Positions 8,624 through 47,612 of a stretch of 64,000 bases of DNA are shown here, in pieces. Each line of letters begins with the position of its first letter. The stretch's first letter is position 1. A model generated the notes under the pieces. The model had not been told where the DNA came from. It ran no database searches and saw only the letters and a program-made list of their open reading frames with translations. The position numbers and the translations under genes were made by a program. The stretch covers positions 62,001 through 126,000 of the forward strand of contig CANMIL010000004.1 of the NCBI GenBank assembly GCA_947497895.1. The letters run 5' to 3'. This DNA is from an uncultured Tenacibaculum sp. (GTDB lineage: Bacteria > Bacteroidota > Bacteroidia > Flavobacteriales > Flavobacteriaceae).

Positions 8624-9358
8624 TCAACTAAATAAATCATTTAATTCTGGATAATGAAAAGGTTCTAAAATATCAGGTCTATCACTATTAACTTTTGGTT
8701 TATAGATGTCTTGAGAAACTGGATAAGCTTGAATCGGTTCATCTGTAAAGGAAATGAGTAGTTCTTCAATCGAGGTTCGGTTATTTTTACAATAAAGCCA
8801 ATCCAATCTTCGCTCCTTAGACAATATTAACGGTTGTCTATTCTTTCCATTGTTATGAATTTTTCTAAAATAATCATTGGCTTCCATAGTAATTATGGTT
8901 GCAGAATATAAAGAAGAAGATCCGTTATCTATTTCACTATAAAGACCTGCAAACGCAAACAAACCATCATCTTCTTTTCTAAAATTAAATGGTATCGAAC
9001 CTTTTATATCTGGATCTTTATGAGGCTCAATAAATCCATCAGCAATTATTAGACATTTTTGCCATCCAATAAACTCAGAAAAAAAAGAACTTGTAAATAC
9101 ATTCTCACTCCTGGCATTAAAAGTTTTATAATCACGGAAAAACTCTTTTCTCTTACTTAAATCATATCCTGTAGGAAGTAAGCCCCAAGAAGCAAAATCA
9201 ATTAGTTCGGGGTCGTCTTGTCTAATAATATACAGGTTCTTATCCTCATACATATTAAAATCGAAGTAAGGTTTATAAACATCTGGCTCAGAAAAAGGAA
9301 TATTAAATTCGTTTTCCACCTCTTCTCTACTTTTCTTTATAGAAATTCTGTAACACAT
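8624..9358 (-). CDS. SRAP (HMCES/YedK)-family protein
   Basis: Starts MCYR (catalytic Cys2), NARSENV, CLIIADGFIEPH motifs. Confidence 0.92.
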   Translation of the reverse strand: MCYRISIKKSREEVENEFNIPFSEPDVYKPYFDFNMYEDKNLYIIRQDDPELIDFASWGLLPTGYDLSKRKEFFRDYKTFNARSENVFTSSFFSEFIGWQKCLIIADGFIEPHKDPDIKGSIPFNFRKEDDGLFAFAGLYSEIDNGSSSLYSATIITMEANDYFRKIHNNGKNRQPLILSKERRLDWLYCKNNRTSIEELLISFTDEPIQAYPVSQDIYKPKVNSDRPDILEPFHYPELNDLFS

Positions 9359-10720: not shown

Positions 10721-11066
10721 CAGGTTTTAAATCTTCAAATTCAACAATTACTTCATTGAGTTCTTTCCTCTGTTTCTCTGTCCTTAATTCCTCTTGCTCA
10801 ATTAACTCTTTTCCCTTTGTTACTTCTTGAACGTTTAACATGTGCTGCTTCCATTCTTTACTAATACGACCAAGTAAAACAACAATACCATAGATAACCC
10901 CCAATACAACCGCTATCTGACTTGGCACTTGATTTAACAGGTTTTGAAAATAGTCTGCCTGAGTAAATTGTTGCTCTATTATAGCCAATGAACTTAATCC
11001 AAAACTATAACCAAATAAGTATTTTAAAACAGGGCTATTTGAAATTAGGGAGAAAAGAGTTGTCAT
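10704..11066 (-). CDS. holin-like membrane protein
   Basis: Hydrophobic helices followed by a charged coil; directly upstream of DUF5675 gene. Confidence 0.6.
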   Translation of the reverse strand: MTTLFSLISNSPVLKYLFGYSFGLSSLAIIEQQFTQADYFQNLLNQVPSQIAVVLGVIYGIVVLLGRISKEWKQHMLNVQEVTKGKELIEQEELRTEKQRKELNEVIVEFEDLKPDESNT

Positions 11067-11068
11067 AA

Positions 11069-11530
11069 TTAAATTGCTTTATTTCTTATTAAATCTTCAG
11101 TTTTTCTTAATCTCCACAACTCAGGATCAAGAAGCCAAGGCGCATTTTGCTTTCTCTCAATCAAAAACATTAATTGTATTTTACTTTTCTCAAATTCAGT
11201 TGGTGCCATATCATCTGGTAACCGGGGAGTAACAATCTTTGTAAATTTATTTATTTGAGCCTCCGTAATTTCCTGCCTTGACCAATCCTGCCTAGTTTCA
11301 ACATATTCCAATTTCTCTAAAGTAACTTCGACAACTTCTCCGTTTTCATTTTCTCTATATTCAACGACATCAACGTATCGAACCAAATCAGTTCGTACTT
11401 TATAAAGCTTATGCCTCTTCACTTCTTCTATTACTGCATGCAAATAACACATAGTTCCGTCAAACGAAGGCATAACAGGTTGATTCGTAATTATTGCAAT
11501 TTGATTTAATGAGGGGTTTAATTTACTCAT
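11069..11530 (-). CDS. phage hypothetical protein between tail and lysis genes
   Basis: Long ORF in the co-oriented late operon. Confidence 0.65.
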   Translation of the reverse strand: MSKLNPSLNQIAIITNQPVMPSFDGTMCYLHAVIEEVKRHKLYKVRTDLVRYVDVVEYRENENGEVVEVTLEKLEYVETRQDWSRQEITEAQINKFTKIVTPRLPDDMAPTEFEKSKIQLMFLIERKQNAPWLLDPELWRLRKTEDLIRNKAI

Positions 11531-11532
11531 AT

Positions 11533-13332
11533 CTATACTTTTATTATAAAGGTTTTCACTTCTATATCAAACGGAGACTGTTGAAATCTCAAGCGCAGTT
11601 TATTGTTGTCAATAGTATTAACGCGGTCATTCAAAGGATAATCAAAGTAGGTTTTGGGAATATCAAAACGCTCAGAATAACTGTCATTGAAAGGTTTAGA
11701 ACAATCTATAGTTATAATTTTAGTAGCGTATTTAAAACCATTCATATCAGTTAACCCTAGACGATGAGTAACGAACAAATTTTGGAGATAAGTTGCTTTA
11801 GAATTATCAAAGTTCAATATTTCAAATTTTAACAAATCATACCCTACAGTGGGATGTCTTTTAAGATCACAAGCAACAGAAAAATAAAAGTTTCCATTTA
11901 TATCAGCCCCTTCTGGAATTATAAAGGTAAAATCGACTCCAAAATCTAAAAAACCGAGATTTCGAACAATATCATTAACAACAAAGGTTTCGTCTAACAA
12001 ATCAACCTTACCATTATTTAACTCTACCTTCGTCCAACGTTTTGCTTTTGAAAGATTTAAAAAACGTTTCTTTAATCTGACTTTTTTCTCTATTTCATCT
12101 AGTTCAAAATCACCAGAAAAACTGATAGAATCAGTAGTTTCGAAAACTTCACTACCTAAATCATCTTTTATTATTAATGGATCAGACTTTCCTTGAACAA
12201 GATTTCCCTTAATTGGTGCTCCAGCATTACCAAATGATGTTTCTGAACTAACTTTAAAATCTTCTTTTATCTGTTTAAACACAGCTTGAGAAGCTCCCCC
12301 ATTCAGTGTTCCTATCAAATTAGTAATACTAATATTCCCATATCTAAAATCACTATCAAGTTCACCTATGTATATAGCTAGGGAATCTCCTCCCTCGTAA
12401 CGAATGTTTAAATCGAATTCCTTCTTTGAAGCAATAATTCTAACATCTTCATGTTGAATAATATTAGTGTTAGAAGCCATTGATGTTCGGAAGTTTAAAA
12501 CCATGTTAAACGAGAACTTAGAACCTCCTTGATAACAACAACTTACATCTAATTCTAATGTAACTGTAGTCATTTGAACAGTAGGTACTGAAATTTTTAA
12601 AGGTCCTGGTGAAGTTACCCTATGACTTACTTGTTTCGGAGTAAAATTATAAGCGGTACCGTAAGTTCTATTTCTTGTATCGATGACAATATTATTACCA
12701 AGAATATCAGCCCCCTTTAACAAAAGCTGATGATTTTCTCTTGCTGCTTCAACGGTATTAAATGAATCGTCCTTGAAAGAAAATCCTTTTTTATAGACTG
12801 ATGGCAACTCACCTCCTAATCGCTCCGAATCTTTAGCAACATCAATTACCAAAGAAGAAAAATCAACAATAAAAGTGGAGTTATCATCACGCTTAAACGT
12901 TGCCAATCCATTAGCATCAACTGTTCCCGAAACAAGCCTTGATAAATTGGTGTCATCTAAATAAAGAGACAAATCTATTTCCTTTACAACTTCTCCATCT
13001 TTTAATAACGAAAGTTTATTTCCTATGATTTCAGACAAAGTGTATGATGGAACAAAATTTGGATTAATTTTAGAATCTTGATTTAAACCTACATACCCAT
13101 TAGGTTGGTCTATTTCATTCCTTTTTTGATATTCCGAGTTAATAGGATTAAACGTAGAAATTTGATACTTTTTAGTTGTCTTTTCTTGGCCATCATAAAC
13201 AGCAATATAATCAGACTGAGTAACTTCTTGTTTCTCTTCTAATTCTGGAATACTCTTACTCTCATTTACTAGCTTTAACAAACTATCACGTAAAGAAGTT
13301 ATTTGATTTACCACCCAATCTTGGAAAGTCAT
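11533..13332 (-). CDS. tail fiber/receptor-binding-type structural protein
   Basis: 599 aa, position distal in the tail operon; N-terminal coil and beta-rich body. Confidence 0.65.
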   Translation of the reverse strand: MTFQDWVVNQITSLRDSLLKLVNESKSIPELEEKQEVTQSDYIAVYDGQEKTTKKYQISTFNPINSEYQKRNEIDQPNGYVGLNQDSKINPNFVPSYTLSEIIGNKLSLLKDGEVVKEIDLSLYLDDTNLSRLVSGTVDANGLATFKRDDNSTFIVDFSSLVIDVAKDSERLGGELPSVYKKGFSFKDDSFNTVEAARENHQLLLKGADILGNNIVIDTRNRTYGTAYNFTPKQVSHRVTSPGPLKISVPTVQMTTVTLELDVSCCYQGGSKFSFNMVLNFRTSMASNTNIIQHEDVRIIASKKEFDLNIRYEGGDSLAIYIGELDSDFRYGNISITNLIGTLNGGASQAVFKQIKEDFKVSSETSFGNAGAPIKGNLVQGKSDPLIIKDDLGSEVFETTDSISFSGDFELDEIEKKVRLKKRFLNLSKAKRWTKVELNNGKVDLLDETFVVNDIVRNLGFLDFGVDFTFIIPEGADINGNFYFSVACDLKRHPTVGYDLLKFEILNFDNSKATYLQNLFVTHRLGLTDMNGFKYATKIITIDCSKPFNDSYSERFDIPKTYFDYPLNDRVNTIDNNKLRLRFQQSPFDIEVKTFIIKV

Positions 13333-31881: not shown

Positions 31882-31933
31882 AATTAAATCTTTGACAATA
31901 AAAAACCACTTCATTCGAAGTGGTTGTGGTAAG
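31882..31933 (-). repeat. intercassette unit D (terminator half)
   Basis: ...TTTGACAATAAAAAACCACTTC-ATTC-GAAGTGGTTGTGGTAAG. Confidence 0.75.
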
Positions 31934-31949
31934 CTTATGTTATTCTCTT

Positions 31950-32357
31950 TTATTTAGCGTTATTGATTTCTCGTATTTTTTCTGGAAATCTAAAATTTTC
32001 TAATTCTTCAACTGAGCTTCCGCTCTGAATCATTTCTTTGATTTCAGAAACGCTAAAAAAAGGATTTACTGTATCAGTTTTATCAACAAGCTCGATTAAC
32101 ATTTCAATATTAAATTCTTCCTTTCCTTCAATTCTTTTCAATAAATCTGATTTTATTTCTTCAAACCAACGCTTATTATAACCAATAGTCGTTGGCGCAG
32201 GTAGGTTTTCAAACTTTTCTATGTCAATTTTGAAATCCTTAATCTCAAAGATTGCCCATTCCAAATAACTCGGTTGATACTCATAAATTTCTGCTAATGT
32301 CAGGCCTTTGTTTTTTCCAAAATTAATTCTATCAGAAGGTTGTAGTGATTTAATCAT
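31950..32357 (-). CDS. moron cassette 1: exonuclease-X-C-terminal-like domain protein
   Basis: INFGKNKGLTLAEIYEYQPSYLEWAIFEI resembles the fGkyKG...YLeWl motif. Confidence 0.65.
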   Translation of the reverse strand: MIKSLQPSDRINFGKNKGLTLAEIYEYQPSYLEWAIFEIKDFKIDIEKFENLPAPTTIGYNKRWFEEIKSDLLKRIEGKEEFNIEMLIELVDKTDTVNPFFSVSEIKEMIQSGSSVEELENFRFPEKIREINNAK

Positions 32358-32419
32358 AATTTCAATTCCAATATGTTATTAGGATAAATGCTTTATTGAA
32401 TATATTAAAATCATTTAAT

Positions 32420-32545
32420 CTTACCACAATGATGTCAAAGAACTTTTCCGTTTTTAAGGTATCGGAGAACCTACTCTTATTTTATAATTCGTTTACTAAA
32501 TCTTGGACATAAAAAAACACCTTAATTAAGGTGTTTTGTGGTAAG
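32420..32545 (-). repeat. intercassette unit A (terminator + promoter)
   Basis: CTTACCACAA...TTGTGGTAAG terminal inverted repeats; contains TCGGAGAACCTAC and a hairpin/T-run. Confidence 0.85.
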
Positions 32546-32592
32546 TGTTATATGTTTAAACTAGGTTTTGTGCCTAAACTTAAAAGTACTAA

Positions 32593-34086
32593 TTAATTCT
32601 TTATCACTTTTTTTAAGGCTACTTTATTATCCTTACTTTCTATTTTTACTAGATATACTCCTTTAGAGAAACCACTAAAATCAATGGCACTTTTTTTTGT
32701 TTCCGAAATTTTATTTCCCAAAACAGAATATACCTCCACTCTTTTGATTTCCGATAAAATTGGTAGAGAAACAGTTAATTGATTATTTACTGGATTAGGA
32801 GCTATGGAGACATTAGTATTAAATACTTTATCAATACTCGCTGTTTCACAATTTTCACTGTAACTAACAGTGTCATCCTTTCCCCATGAATGTGGTATAT
32901 TATTAACATCATCCACTTGAATACATGTAAGATCTTCGTTATCAAAAGACAACATTGTTTGCATGTTTCTATTGCTACCGTTTTTTAAATCTAAACTCGT
33001 AAGTTGATTACGAGAACACCATAAATGAGTTAACTCCGTATTTTGAGATACATCTAAACTCGTAAGGGAATTAACACGACAAATTAGCTCTGTTAACTCC
33101 GTATTTTGAGATACATCTAAACTCGTAAGTTGGTTGTGATCACACCACAAATGAGTTAACTCCGTGTTTTGAGATACATCTAAACTCATAAGATAATTAT
33201 CAGAACAATCTAAATAAGTTAACTCCGTATTTTGAGATACATCTAAACTCGTAAGAGAATTATTATGACACCATAATTCAATTAACTCCGTATTTTGAGA
33301 TACATCTAAACTCGTAAGGGAATTAAAAGAACACCATAATTGAGTTAACTCCGTATTTTGAGATACATCTAAACTCGTAAGGGAATTAACACGACAAATT
33401 AGCTCTGTTAACTCCGTATTTTGAGATACATCTAAACTCGTAAGGGAATTATTATGACAATATAAAACAGTTAACTCCGTATTTTGAGATACATCTAAAC
33501 TCGTAAGGGAATTAATATGACAAAATAAATAAGTTAACTCCGTATTTTGAGATACATCTAAACTCGTGAGTTGATTATCATCACACCTTAATCGAATTAA
33601 CTCCGTATTTTGAGATACATCTAAACTCGTAAGGCTATTACCTTTACACCTTAATCGAATTAACTCCGTATTTTGAGATACATCTAAACTCGTAAGAGAA
33701 TTATTATGACACAATAAATCAGTTAGCTCCGTATTCTTTGATAAATCTAAACTCGTAAGTTGATTGACATAACACCATAATCGAGTTAACTTTGTGTTTT
33801 TGGAAACATCTAAACTCGTAAGGGAATTATTATGACAATCTAATTCAGTTAACTCCACAAAAGCTTCAATCCCCGTTAAATCCGAGATTTCTCTATAAGA
33901 AACATAAATCGTACCAGTAAAAGACTCGGCTTCGCTCACTTGTATCTCTGAATCGCCATTGGTGTTAATTTGAGTATTACCTATCAAATAAGCTTTAAAA
34001 TTAGCATCTGGGATGTTTACATTTTGTGCTTTTATAAGCATTGATAAACAAAAAAGAAGTAGTAATAGTAAGTAGTTTTTTTTCAT
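32593..34086 (-). CDS. moron cassette 2: secreted leucine-rich-repeat protein with T9SS C-terminal sorting domain
   Basis: Signal peptide; 13 tandem 21-aa LTSLDVSQNTEL repeats; C-terminal APNPVNNQLTVS...GVYLVKIESKDNKVALKKVIKN. Confidence 0.93.
   Translation of the reverse strand: MKKNYLLLLLLFCLSMLIKAQNVNIPDANFKAYLIGNTQINTNGDSEIQVSEAESFTGTIYVSYREISDLTGIEAFVELTELDCHNNSLTSLDVSKNTKLTRLWCYVNQLTSLDLSKNTELTDLLCHNNSLTSLDVSQNTELIRLRCKGNSLTSLDVSQNTELIRLRCDDNQLTSLDVSQNTELTYLFCHINSLTSLDVSQNTELTVLYCHNNSLTSLDVSQNTELTELICRVNSLTSLDVSQNTELTQLWCSFNSLTSLDVSQNTELIELWCHNNSLTSLDVSQNTELTYLDCSDNYLMSLDVSQNTELTHLWCDHNQLTSLDVSQNTELTELICRVNSLTSLDVSQNTELTHLWCSRNQLTSLDLKNGSNRNMQTMLSFDNEDLTCIQVDDVNNIPHSWGKDDTVSYSENCETASIDKVFNTNVSIAPNPVNNQLTVSLPILSEIKRVEVYSVLGNKISETKKSAIDFSGFSKGVYLVKIESKDNKVALKKVIKN
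33004..33822 (-). repeat. 13 tandem 63-bp (21-aa) LRR units
   Basis: Near-identical 63-bp units with variable codons at fixed positions. Confidence 0.9.
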
Positions 34087-34325
34087 AATTTTAACTTTTA
34101 CAATGTATTATGTATGTTGGAAAAAAAGATTACGTAAACTACCCTTTTAGAATAAGCATAGTTTTTATTTGAAAATAAATGTTGATTTGAGGTCTTAGCT
34201 ATTTTTAATGTGCATCTTTTTCACAACTTACAATTTCTTGTAAAGATATTTTATTTTTTTAATTCTCTTACAACTCCATTATTTTTTTTTGGAATCTAAA
34301 AAAATACAATTGTAAAAGAATCTCA

Positions 34326-34453
34326 CTTACCACAATTATGTCAAAGAACGTTTTTCCGTTTTTCAGGTATCGGAGAACCTACTGTTTTTTAAATATTCTT
34401 TTACTAAATTTTTGACAATAAAAAACCACTTCAATTGAAGTGGTCATGGTAAG
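34326..34453 (-). repeat. intercassette unit B (terminator + promoter)
   Basis: CTTACCACAATTATGTCAAAGAAC...TTTTGACAATAAAAAACCACTTCAATTGAAGTGGTCATGGTAAG. Confidence 0.85.
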
Positions 34454-34473
34454 TTGGTTTGTATTTAAATAAT

Positions 34474-34911
34474 CTATTTTTTAGACGCTTTAATTTGCTC
34501 CTCTAAAAACGATATTTTTTTTTGTGCTCTATCTAAATCATCTCTTAATAAATTGATTTGATTTAAGTTTTGGTTGATGTTTTCCAATTTTTGAAGCTGT
34601 AATTCTTGCCAAGTTTTATCTCCTTCGAAATCCCGATAACTAAAGTAAATAGAAAATAAAGAGGAAATAAGTGTTGTTATGACCACAATTATACTTAAAC
34701 GAAATGCTCTTCCAGATATTTTAAGACTCGACTTAGCTGATCTTCGCTCTAGTTCTTGATTAGCTATCTGAGCGAGAGTCATTTTGTCATTTGGTGAAGG
34801 TTTACCATTGGAACTTTTCCAAAAATTAAAATATTGTGTTAGATTAAAATTGATAGATTCTTTAAGTTCTTCTTCAGAATCCGTTAAGTTAGGTAGTTTA
34901 AAATCATTCAT
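34474..34911 (-). CDS. moron cassette 3: single-TM coiled-coil protein
   Basis: Central hydrophobic helix, C-terminal coiled coil. Confidence 0.7.
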   Translation of the reverse strand: MNDFKLPNLTDSEEELKESINFNLTQYFNFWKSSNGKPSPNDKMTLAQIANQELERRSAKSSLKISGRAFRLSIIVVITTLISSLFSIYFSYRDFEGDKTWQELQLQKLENINQNLNQINLLRDDLDRAQKKISFLEEQIKASKK

Positions 34912-34950
34912 GAATTTTGTTTTTTACCAAAACTAAATAACAACATCCAA

Positions 34951-35001
34951 CTTACCAATTATGTCAATGAACTTTTCCGTTTTTAAGGTACCGGAGAACC
35001 T
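34951..35001 (-). repeat. intercassette unit C (promoter half)
   Basis: CTTACCAATTATGTCAATGAACTTTTCCGTTTTTAAGGTACCGGAGAACCTAC. Confidence 0.8.
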
Positions 35002-35269
35002 ACACTTTTTTTAATGGTTGTACATTGCTCGGTTCTACGATTATTCTCTCTTTTATATCGGAACCGTATTTTTTTTCAAACTTTTCAGTTTCTCCCCACC
35101 AGCACTCGCACCCCCATACATACTTTCCTGAATCTAATTTGATGCATGGGTTTGTGATGTTTAAATCTTTAAAGGGATTCATATCTGGAACTTGATCTTT
35201 TATCAGCTCTCCTTCGCCGTATGTTCTTAGAACACCATTTTTAAAGCTTTCTATTGCTATTACTCTCAT
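35000..35269 (-). CDS. hypothetical phage protein
   Basis: 89-aa ORF, co-oriented. Confidence 0.6.
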   Translation of the reverse strand: MRVIAIESFKNGVLRTYGEGELIKDQVPDMNPFKDLNITNPCIKLDSGKYVWGCECWWGETEKFEKKYGSDIKERIIVEPSNVQPLKKV

Positions 35270-35276
35270 CGTTTAA

Positions 35277-35978
35277 CTACTGTTTAAAAGATTCAGGTTT
35301 CACTATCGTCTCGAAATCATACACCCATACCCAAGGATTTTCTTCTAATGACTCTTTACCATTTATTGACCACCAAAGAGTGAAAAAACTTGCTTTCCAT
35401 CCAGAATGAGAAGGTACTTTTTCCATTACATAAGGAGCATCACCAAAGAAATATTGATGTTTAAAACCATCCTTTTCACCGCACATATAATTTAAAGGAG
35501 CTTTTTCTCCCCAATAATCATCCGTAATGTAAATTCCCTCATTTTTGGAATCTTCGTCTGAAATATCGTGCAGTCTTTCAATTCTTACATTTTTAACTTT
35601 TAGAAATAATCTACAAGCTTTTTTAGGCATAAAAATTGAAGGCTTCCAACCTTGCCAATCTTCAATATTATATTCATCATTTTCACCATCTGCTCGATAA
35701 ATAAATTCTTCTTTCCCTGTTTTGTATGAGTTTATTAATTGCCATGTTTCGCGAACCCACAATACATCACCTTTTTGATATTTTGCTTTACAAGAAATAA
35801 AGTTTTCATCTGTACTTCTTTGATTAGATCCAATTCCGAAGCAATAACCTTCTTGACAGAAACCTACATTTTCGGAAAGTGTAGGCTGAGGCTTCACAAT
35901 TCGTCTGGTTTGGTTTTTTGCGCCATTCATGATAGCTTTTACCATTTCCTTATTAAATAATATCGGTCTTATCTTCAT
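35277..35978 (-). CDS. ASCH/PUA-like phage protein
   Basis: MKIRPILFNKEMVKAIMNGAKNQTRRIVKPQP... typical N-terminus of this phage family. Confidence 0.8.
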   Translation of the reverse strand: MKIRPILFNKEMVKAIMNGAKNQTRRIVKPQPTLSENVGFCQEGYCFGIGSNQRSTDENFISCKAKYQKGDVLWVRETWQLINSYKTGKEEFIYRADGENDEYNIEDWQGWKPSIFMPKKACRLFLKVKNVRIERLHDISDEDSKNEGIYITDDYWGEKAPLNYMCGEKDGFKHQYFFGDAPYVMEKVPSHSGWKASFFTLWWSINGKESLEENPWVWVYDFETIVKPESFKQ

Positions 35979-35980
35979 AA

Positions 35981-36496
35981 TTACTGGTTTTTTGGTTCAT
36001 TGAATATCTGAAGAGCCTCTAAATACTTTTTGTTATCTCCATACCATAAAAACTTTAAACCTTCGTAAAATTTAATAATGTGGTCATGAGTTTTAAAGAC
36101 TTTCTTTGGCAAATGGTAGGTGTATTCTTGCTCATAGTTGAAAGTTATTTTTTGTCCGCTTTTGTAGTGGTTTAAAAGACTTCTCATTATGGTTCGTGAT
36201 TTATCTGCACTGCAAGGGCTACCTTCTTTTTCTTCTATAATTCGGGCAAAATTATGTTCTATGAATTTTTGATTTTGGATTATGAAAACTACATCTCTAT
36301 TGTTTGCTATTTTACTTTTTACAAACCCACTTATGAATTGTTCAAACGGATATAAAACCGCATAGAAAAATCCTTCATGGTCTTTAATATCGGTGATTTT
36401 ATTAGTAGCTATTACTTTCTTAAACAAATCAATTTCTTTCTGTTCTATGCGACCAATCATAGAATCTAAAAATTTTGTTATGTCTTGTTTATCCAT
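35981..36496 (-). CDS. hypothetical protein
   Basis: 171-aa ORF. Confidence 0.6.
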   Translation of the reverse strand: MDKQDITKFLDSMIGRIEQKEIDLFKKVIATNKITDIKDHEGFFYAVLYPFEQFISGFVKSKIANNRDVVFIIQNQKFIEHNFARIIEEKEGSPCSADKSRTIMRSLLNHYKSGQKITFNYEQEYTYHLPKKVFKTHDHIIKFYEGLKFLWYGDNKKYLEALQIFNEPKNQ

Positions 36497-36722
36497 TTCT
36501 TATCGTTTTTACTACTGTTTTAAGGTTATGAACTGCTCAAAACTTACATTTGGATTACTAAGTCTAAAAATTTGATATTGTCCCCATAAATAGTTTCTCT
36601 TTAAAACTGGCTTGATTTTTTTACTGTTTTTCATCTTTTTGCGCTTTTGCGTTAATATTTGCGTTTTTGCGTAGCTCAATAGCTACTCTTTTACTTTATT
36701 TTGTTTTTACTAATTTTGATTC

Positions 36723-36878
36723 ATGCGTATATTAAAACTTTGGTATTGGCGATTATTACTAAGTGTCGTGGTTGGTCAAACTATCGTTCAATTATTTGAA
36801 GGATTTAATGACTATATTTTCGTTGGAACAATCGTAATATGTTTTGTTATTCTTTCCGCTATGGCTAAAAAGCTTTAA
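36723..36878 (+). CDS. small membrane protein on opposite strand
   Basis: Manual translation MRILKLWYWRLLLSVVVGQTIVQLFEGFNDYIFVGTIVICFVILSAMAKKL*. Confidence 0.5.
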   Translation: MRILKLWYWRLLLSVVVGQTIVQLFEGFNDYIFVGTIVICFVILSAMAKKL

Positions 36879-36889
36879 CTACTGTATTT

Positions 36890-37147
36890 TTAGTTTTTGA
36901 TATTGTCTAATACATGAGAATATTTACTATTCTCAATCCATTCTTGAAGCTGATCCGATGGACTAAAAATCTCTGGGATCAATTCCATTGCGTTTTTTAT
37001 TGAAATTCTTTCAAATCGATTAGACCAGTTAAACTTCACATAAAACACAGGTCTTTGAATCCATTTTCTTTTCTCTGAATCATACCTTACAAATTGCCAA
37101 TCTTGTTTTGCTTCTTGAAGGTCTTCCCAAGTTATTTTCATATCCAT
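36890..37147 (-). CDS. hypothetical protein
   Basis: 85-aa ORF. Confidence 0.6.
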   Translation of the reverse strand: MDMKITWEDLQEAKQDWQFVRYDSEKRKWIQRPVFYVKFNWSNRFERISIKNAMELIPEIFSPSDQLQEWIENSKYSHVLDNIKN

Positions 37148-37157
37148 TATGCTACAG

Positions 37158-37313
37158 TTAAAATTCGTTTTCTAAATAACTAGCTAAGTTTATTATTTGG
37201 TCAGCTCTTAAATTGTAATAAGTATTACTCGAATCAAACCAAGGTCTATCGCCTCCAATATCATTTGCAGACATCCATTCTTCAATTAATTCTGTTTTCG
37301 ATTTATTCTTCAT
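37158..37313 (-). CDS. small hypothetical protein
   Basis: Manual translation MKNKSKTELIEEWMSANDIGGDRPWFDSSNTYYNLRADQIINLASYLENEF*. Confidence 0.55.
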   Translation of the reverse strand: MKNKSKTELIEEWMSANDIGGDRPWFDSSNTYYNLRADQIINLASYLENEF

Positions 37314-37349
37314 CTTTTTATGTTTTTACGTAGCAGAAATGCTACAGGT

Positions 37350-46324: not shown

Positions 46325-46690
46325 CTATCCCCAATAAGCCAACTCAGCTACATTTCTGTTAATATTAAATGATGTGATATTATCGTTTAGTTCAGCTCTT
46401 CTATTTTCAACTAGCTTAATAATGCAATCAAAAATTTTGTTTTGCTCCCTTTCTGCTAATTGGACAGTTTCTTCATCATCTCCTAACCATACGAAAAGCT
46501 CATATTTATCTTTCTTACAACCGTAAACCATATCTAGTCTGAAATAGCCCCAACCTAACTCCTCTTCAGCATAAAAAGCACACTCATTTTCAAGACTATG
46601 TAAGTTGTTATCTTCGAACTGTATAGTACATACTTCTACTATCTTTTCAATTTGCTCAGTAGTAAGTGCGTTTTTAACGGTTGCTTCCAT
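46325..46690 (-). CDS. first leftward early gene, hypothetical (start MEATVKNAL)
   Basis: Start corrected from 46744 using the conserved start in the duplicate copy. Confidence 0.6.
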   Translation of the reverse strand: MEATVKNALTTEQIEKIVEVCTIQFEDNNLHSLENECAFYAEEELGWGYFRLDMVYGCKKDKYELFVWLGDDEETVQLAEREQNKIFDCIIKLVENRRAELNDNITSFNINRNVAELAYWG

Positions 46691-46733
46691 TTTTTTTGTA
46701 AGTTTGTGTTGTTGAACAATACGAAGATATAAC
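46512..46733. repeat. 222-bp direct duplication, copy 1
   Basis: About 98% identical by eye to 47391-47612. Confidence 0.9.
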
Positions 46734-47368: not shown

Positions 47369-47569
47369 TTAGTAATAATTTCCGATAATTTTCTTACAAC
47401 CGTAAACCATATCTAGTCTGAAATAGCCCCAACCTAACTCCTCTTCAGCATAAAAAGCACACTCATTTTCAAGACCATGTAAGTTGTTATCTTCGAACTG
47501 TATAGTACATACTTCTACTATCTTTTCAATTTGCTCGGTAGTAAGTGCGTTTTTAACGGTTGCTTCCAT
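47369..47569 (-). pseudogene. truncated duplicate of the 46325-46690 gene
   Basis: First ~59 residues nearly identical, then unrelated short tail. Confidence 0.8.
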
Positions 47570-47612
47570 TTTTTTTGTAAGTTTGTGTTGTTGGATAATA
47601 CGAAGATATAAC
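47391..47612. repeat. 222-bp direct duplication, copy 2
   Basis: See copy 1. Confidence 0.9.

Follow-up and report, generated by a model that had tools for sequence, protein, structure and literature searches.

Several described systems come close to the locus reported here. Phage morons are unrelated extra genes with their own promoters and terminators lying between phage modules, integrons and sedentary chromosomal integrons hold small, exactly edged cassettes oriented head-to-tail, which may be duplicated and whose content turns over while the chromosomal site stays fixed, and the PeSL elements, reportedly presented by Arbiol and colleagues in 2010 as mobile regulatory cassettes of T4-type phages, are stem-loop regulatory elements between accessory phage genes tied to modular shuffling. 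The boxA of rrn operons, the lambda nut site (boxA-boxB), HK022 put and Bacillus EAR are processive antitermination sites in which the transcript carries a boxA-like sequence beside a structured RNA ahead of a terminator. We analysed a window of 64,000 nucleotides from an uncultured Tenacibaculum sp. (GCA_947497895.1, contig CANMIL010000004.1, positions 62,001 to 126,000), in which a prophage carries an array of gene cassettes between primase/helicase genes on one side and the genes of the terminase small and large subunits on the other. Three of these cassettes have a conserved head in front of the gene and a conserved tail behind it, together referred to as the frame. The explanation we favour, with moderate confidence, is that they are mobile gene cassettes bringing along their own antitermination and termination control.

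As in morons, unrelated extra genes with their own terminators are found between phage modules; however, a moron has its own promoter, whereas here the conserved leader resembles an antiterminator and the promoter is only putative. The arrays resemble those of integrons, but are separated by a (C/G)(A/T)GTAG boundary with an A-rich upstream stretch, occur also in prophages and lack an integron integrase scoring above the cut-off of its family in nine genomes searched. The PeSL combination of early phage promoter and stem-loop is represented by its stem-loop, the promoter being confined to putative, unconserved TAnnTTTG sites; unlike PeSL elements, the cassettes have a frame around a whole gene, composed of a pseudoknot, boxA and covarying long-range arms, they have GTAG edges, and copies exist in chromosomes and satellite-like islands. 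With nut, put and rrn sites they share the boxA-like sequence and the conserved, covarying structured RNA beside it. In contrast to these sites and EAR, a small H-type pseudoknot lies 5' of boxA, each gene's copy base-pairs with its own terminator region and an anti-boxA, neither an N-like nor a Q-like protein was identified, and the antitermination role is deduced from sequence.

Results

The cassette frame as RNA

In the order of transcription, the head runs from GTAG through an H-type pseudoknot of ~30 nt and the boxA-like GTTC(T/A)TTGACAT into an arm of 10-17 nt containing TGGTAAG. The tail starts with an arm containing CTTACCA, followed by a hairpin with a T run, the sequence (A/T)TGTCNAA(G/A)A termed anti-boxA, ~30 AT-rich nt and the next (C/G)(A/T)GTAG. 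Two stretches of the tail, one on either side of its terminator, are thus complementary to parts of the head, namely the arm behind boxA and boxA itself.

Computationally, both the pseudoknot and the arm pairing covary, as a frame made of RNA should. Stem 2 of the pseudoknot changes between cassettes in a compensated manner (TCCG/CGGA, TCAG/CTGA, ATCGC/GCGAT, ACCAAT/ATTGGT, CCAGT/ACTGG, GTTGGA/TCCGAT), and when the 3' strands were redistributed 20,000 times among 23 distinct heads, the pairing score never rose to that of the actual heads (264 compared to a permuted mean of 196 and a maximum of 251; p = 5e-5). The same holds for the pairing of each head arm with its own tail arm, which scored 615 and was reached by 0 of 20,000 shuffles (mean 514, maximum 589; n = 24; p = 5e-5). 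Pairing between own arms extends past the common core, including G-U pairs and double changes (TTGTAGTAAATAATA/TATTATTTACTACAA; TTGTGATAAGA/TCTTATCACAA), and compared to the tail of the upstream neighbour at the same junction the own tail arm was the better partner in seven of eight cases, the eighth being a tie.

Folding of whole cassettes (587 to 1869 nt) agrees with this pairing, as the arm helix is present in all six full-length folds with a probability of 0.87-0.98. A helix of boxA with anti-boxA is predicted at a probability of at least 0.75 in 13 of 14 folded cassettes. In the predicted folds, the arm helix, the boxA:anti-boxA helix and the terminator hairpin between them form a three-way junction, and both cassette ends come to lie at most ~35 nt from it. 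The first-pass annotation had taken the CTTACCA/TGGTAAG sequences for inverted repeats bounding a ~127-bp unit and possibly allowing its inversion. The repeats do exist, but they pair across the gene, head arm with own tail arm, and not mainly across the 127-bp junction; inversion lacks support, the arms covarying within a cassette, containing G-U wobbles and folding as RNA.

The head contains a boxA-like sequence shared with rRNA operons

The 16S-23S spacer of Tenacibaculum rRNA operons carries AAGTTCATTGACATATTGG and shares a 12-nt sequence with the cassette heads. As the genome bearing the array has no assembled 16S rRNA, boxA was compared in two congeners, which have AAGTTCATTGACATATTGGTAAAAT in the 16S-23S spacer and CAAGTTCATTGAAAATATTG in the 16S leader. 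In E. coli rRNA operons, boxA is located in exactly these two places, the 16S leader and the 16S-23S spacer. The simplest reading of the head block GTTCWTTGACATAATTG is accordingly that it is a boxA. boxA recruits NusB and S10 (PMC4807359; PMC12691694).

Framed cassettes are distributed sporadically over the genus and beyond

The 5.0 Mb genome has five GTAGGTTCTCCG(A/G)YACCT elements, of which three belong to the window array and two to a second array on another contig (C1), which contains two framed genes of the same anatomy. As these five occurrences all fall into two arrays built alike, the repeat in the window is not a chance pattern. Among 168 congeneric genomes, 15 contain the head pattern and about a dozen remain after inspection of the heads, by which a few chance hits were removed; among 398 genomes sampled from the family, only the array's own genome has the strict pattern. 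Full heads and tails are present in a metagenome-assembled genome of Kordia and in two IMG/VR phages (L146 and L150), and a third phage (L007) carries the head. Most IMG/VR matches to the head pattern were rejected as chance matches having neither pseudoknot nor tail; L008, inside a coding sequence, is likewise a chance match. Compared with the phage collection, the region of the window array gave almost no match.

The cassettes are located in prophages, satellite-like islands and chromosomes, singly or arrayed, and their cargo differs almost every time. This confirms the original observation, including the expectation that such units surround other genes elsewhere, and the idea of a modular cassette locus proves right in kind: the three-gene array widens to a cassette system with an antitermination-like RNA frame that occurs sporadically in the genus. 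The mobile unit, however, is head-gene-tail with GTAG ends. Recombination between 127-bp junction units is unsupported, the whole cassette being what moves, and so is a limitation to lysogeny genes or prophages.

Two islands in one genome (G069:C3, 3.946-3.980 Mb and 4.492-4.530 Mb; L153-L156) each have an integrase at one end and 5-6 framed heads. One contains a phage-type primase, many genes are lipoprotein-like and no structural genes were noticed among them; by their gene content the islands look like phage satellites bearing framed cassettes.

Cassettes move as whole units with GTAG edges

Framed cassettes sit among many small unframed ones, arranged head-to-tail and separated by an A-rich stretch and (C/G)(A/T)GTAG. 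On the minus strand, 13 of the window's 17 copies of these motifs with A-rich separation lie within 34-38 kb, and open reading frames of at least 60 aa on the array strand end exactly at a boundary TAG in 13 of 119 cases, compared to 1 of 228 in the flanking chromosome. Cassettes are frequently inserted at a GTAG that immediately follows or includes the stop codon of the gene before.

By computational comparison of loci, whole framed cassettes are mobile between them. A complete framed cassette of the C1 chromosomal array is 93.6% identical over 706 bp to one in a prophage of another species (G067), the loci being unrelated; the match starts exactly at GTAG, and the 3' boundary is eroded in one copy. 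The cassette of the MAIIENTTPR gene is shared between G119 and G025 (97% over 242 bp), with a diverged copy in G167, and duplicated cassettes exist in G167 (99%, 289 bp) and G025 (95%, 209 bp). The C1 array and that of a second species (G119:C8) occupy the same chromosomal site with flanks 84-97% identical, the cassettes being shuffled and largely different and the homologous left flank stopping at GTGTA(G/A)TTA. A search for an empty site in relatives by means of a phage gene beside one cassette retrieved only a distant homologue in another array and no clean pair of empty and occupied sites.

Some other cassettes start with hairpins beginning with GTAG (GTAGCTATTGAGCTAC, GTAGCATTTCTGCTAC; window positions 36683 and 37342 on the minus strand, L009 at ~6140, L158), so that a structured boundary start may extend beyond the framed type. 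Another array (L034, G025:C5:3364001-3384000) contains repeated small peptides antisense within cassettes (plus strand, for example 9154-9312, 10945-11139 and 12638-12811) with a common bacteriocin-like double-glycine leader MLKNISNLGxxLNKxEQ(Q/K)xINGG. Further repeated non-coding cassettes with long hairpins are found in the 8980 region of L041 (G119:C8; CTGCGYATTAA...TTAATACGCAG; GTAGCTAACTG...CAGTTAACTAC).

The array of the window

Re-reading of the sequence places two full junction copies at 34326-34453 and 32420-32545, within a few bases of the annotated coordinates, and a tail-only copy (31933-31872) closes the array as described (Table 1). A head-only copy does begin the framed run at 35003, but the array itself continues upstream to ~37.34 kb with (C/G)(A/T)GTAG boundaries. 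The three minus-strand cargo genes are unrelated, as had been stated. The second has 63-bp tandem repeats at 32986-33860 (13 register copies, 60-87% identity to the reference), for which variation in copy number is likely. Elsewhere in the window, a 223-bp direct repeat, 98% identical, is located at 46511-46733 and 47390-47612.

Table 1. Features of the cassette array in window coordinates.
Feature	Position	Strand	Evidence
Unframed small-gene cassettes, upstream remainder of array; boundaries end at 37342, 37152, 36879, 36683, 36512, 35277, 35000	35000..37345	-	
Cassette 1 head: GTAG 35003-35000 (stop codon of upstream gene) and H-type pseudoknot, stem 1 AGGT/ACCT, stem 2 TCCG/CGGA	34973..35003	-	sequence; covariation
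Cassette 1 boxA-like GTTCATTGACAT	34961..34972	-	same sequence in genus rRNA 16S-23S spacer
Cassette 1 head arm TGGTAAGTTGG	34947..34957	-	arm pairing, pair probability 0.98
Cargo gene 1, 145 aa, membrane/coiled-coil, weak sub-cutoff TssO match	34474..34911	-	
Cassette 1 tail arm CCAACTTACCA, complementary to own head arm	34447..34457	-	arm pairing, folding
Cassette 1 intrinsic terminator ACCACTTC-AATT-GAAGTGGT and T run	34420..34444	-	sequence, folding
Cassette 1 anti-boxA TTGTCAA	34412..34418	-	folding
Cassette 2 boundary CAGTAG (GTAG 34382-34379) and pseudoknot head	34350..34382	-	sequence; covariation
Cassette 2 boxA-like GTTCTTTGACAT	34338..34349	-	rRNA spacer match
Cassette 2 head arm TTGTGGTAAGTG	34324..34335	-	arm pairing
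Cargo gene 2, 497 aa, leucine-rich repeat protein with Por_Secre_tail (type IX secretion tail)	32593..34086	-	
Cassette 2 tail arm CACTTACCACAA	32536..32547	-	arm pairing
Cassette 2 terminator ACACCTTAATTAAGGTGT and T run	32511..32535	-	sequence
Cassette 2 anti-boxA ATGTCCAAGA	32501..32510	-	sequence; homologous tails fold onto boxA
Cassette 3 boundary GAGTAG (GTAG 32474-32471) and pseudoknot head	32444..32474	-	sequence; covariation
Cassette 3 boxA-like GTTCTTTGACAT	32432..32443	-	rRNA spacer match, folding
Cassette 3 head arm TTGTGGTAAG	32420..32429	-	arm pairing, pair probability 0.87
Cargo gene 3, 135 aa, ExoX-like C-terminal domain	31950..32357	-	
Cassette 3 tail arm CTTACCACAA	31924..31933	-	arm pairing, folding
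Cassette 3 terminator AACCACTTCGAATGAAGTGGTT and T run	31900..31925	-	sequence, folding
Cassette 3 anti-boxA TTGTCAAAGA	31889..31898	-	folding

Discussion

We propose a model according to which a polymerase arriving from upstream would transcribe the pseudoknot and boxA and become antiterminated by a presumed NusB/S10-type complex, as on rRNA. It would cross the gene, stay tethered to the head through the long-range pairing of the arms, and read past the terminator, whereupon the emerging anti-boxA would sequester boxA and end antitermination, resetting the system. Transcripts begun inside the cassette downstream of boxA would not include the head, and the terminator would end them. A cassette with such a frame could therefore be inserted into a co-directional operon without blocking the genes downstream. 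The mechanism would explain why the terminator is coupled by base-pairing to the boxA leader and how co-directional operons can tolerate a cassette right behind a stop codon.

Several points weigh against this model. Antitermination, the reset step and the internal promoters we infer from sequence, and boxA alone in E. coli mainly counters Rho-dependent termination. The reset step is the weakest part of the proposal: its helix is well predicted, but clear compensatory changes are not seen, heads with GTTCATTG retaining imperfect tails, and in 3 of 17 screened tails an anti-boxA match is missing. In addition, heads or tails are decayed in some cassettes, and some contain several genes. Finally, when all alignment ends are compared with the boundary motif, the agreement is only mildly above chance (30/134, 16% being expected), as most of the signal comes from gene families and from sequence common to the frames; the claim of sharp edges rests on the high-identity matches of whole cassettes.

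The foremost alternative, which we regard as unlikely, is that the genes are independent morons, each with its own promoter, gene and terminator, the conserved ends serving as recombination homology and the head as promoter or operator. Phage morons of such a layout are well known and the intrinsic terminators are real at each gene, so that this part of the promoter-gene-terminator order given by the first-pass annotation stands. Its promoter half does not find support. Reading the TTGACA as the -35 box of a sigma70 promoter was rejected, the hexamer being part of the boxA-like GTTC(T/A)TTGACAT also present in the rRNA 16S-23S spacer, and in flavobacteria sigma-A has TAnnTTTG as its -7 consensus (PMC9723704). 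Sites of this type can be drawn downstream of boxA in many leaders, for instance in cassette 1 (ATTG-20-TAGTTTTG, with a -33 TTG ~20 nt before TAnnTTTG), but they are not conserved between cassettes, and the -7 score per cassette is not clearly above the expectation for matched composition. A DNA operator would moreover leave the covariation of the pseudoknot, and that of the arms including G-U pairs, unexplained.

Covariation also bears on the possibility that head and tail together work as a regulatory RNA switch, i.e. a ligand- or protein-responsive attenuator of the cassette gene. The compact pseudoknot with its A-rich loop, the mutually exclusive states of boxA and the terminator would suit such a switch. 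We consider it improbable, as the pseudoknot sequence varies freely apart from its pairing and hence no ligand pocket is conserved, the Rfam covariance models gave no credible match to the frame up to E = 5, and the terminator lies downstream of the gene and not in the leader.

Distinctly improbable appears an integron-type system, in which a tyrosine recombinase would act at sites around (C/G)(A/T)GTAG, even though the one-orientation head-to-tail arrays of short genes, their precise edges, the duplicates and the differing content at an orthologous chromosomal locus are all suggestive of it. None of nine array-bearing genomes has a match to the integron integrase model TIGR02249 above the 265-bit cut-off, the best partial match reaching 142 bits, and no recombinase was found by motif at the chromosomal arrays. 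In prophages and islands, the element's own tyrosine integrase is nearby and has the look of an ordinary element integrase. Boundaries read by eye have (C/G)(A/T)GTAG in common and not the GTTRRRY of the imperfect attC palindrome (RYYYAAC ... GTTRRRY), and no attC-like site was evident in this visual reading. We hold it hardly probable that the frame serves mobility by joining the GTAG ends through paired head and tail in an intermediate of RNA or folded single-stranded DNA, much as an intron or retro-element would move if its loop held the gene, for, although the cassette ends lie close to the three-way junction, framed cassettes relocate as a whole and insertion right after stop codons at GTAG is frequent, the frame is not required for mobility because most cassettes of the same arrays share the GTAG boundaries without it, no reverse transcriptase was noticed among the open reading frames read, and a terminator within a mobile RNA would be counterproductive.

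Returning to mobile cassettes with their own antitermination and termination control, a wider proposal is that they belong to an undescribed cassette class in the prophages, satellite-like islands and chromosomes of Flavobacteriaceae with dedicated site-specific movement at (C/G)(A/T)GTAG, whose framed members carry a self-resetting antitermination device making insertion transcriptionally silent for the neighbours. This wider proposal is tentative and we consider it doubtful as a whole. The (C/G)(A/T)GTAG boundary and the head motif allow further members to be found.

How accessory genes are packed in phage genomes without disturbing the transcription of their neighbours is largely unexplained outside a few coliphages, and processive antitermination sites are little described in this phylum. 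If the favoured explanation is true, a boxA antiterminator base-paired to its own terminator would be a compact and general answer and would constitute a new type of processive antitermination site. The arrays would then represent a system that exchanges cassettes among phage, chromosome and satellite-like islands while lacking an integron integrase, and the enzyme responsible could be sought.

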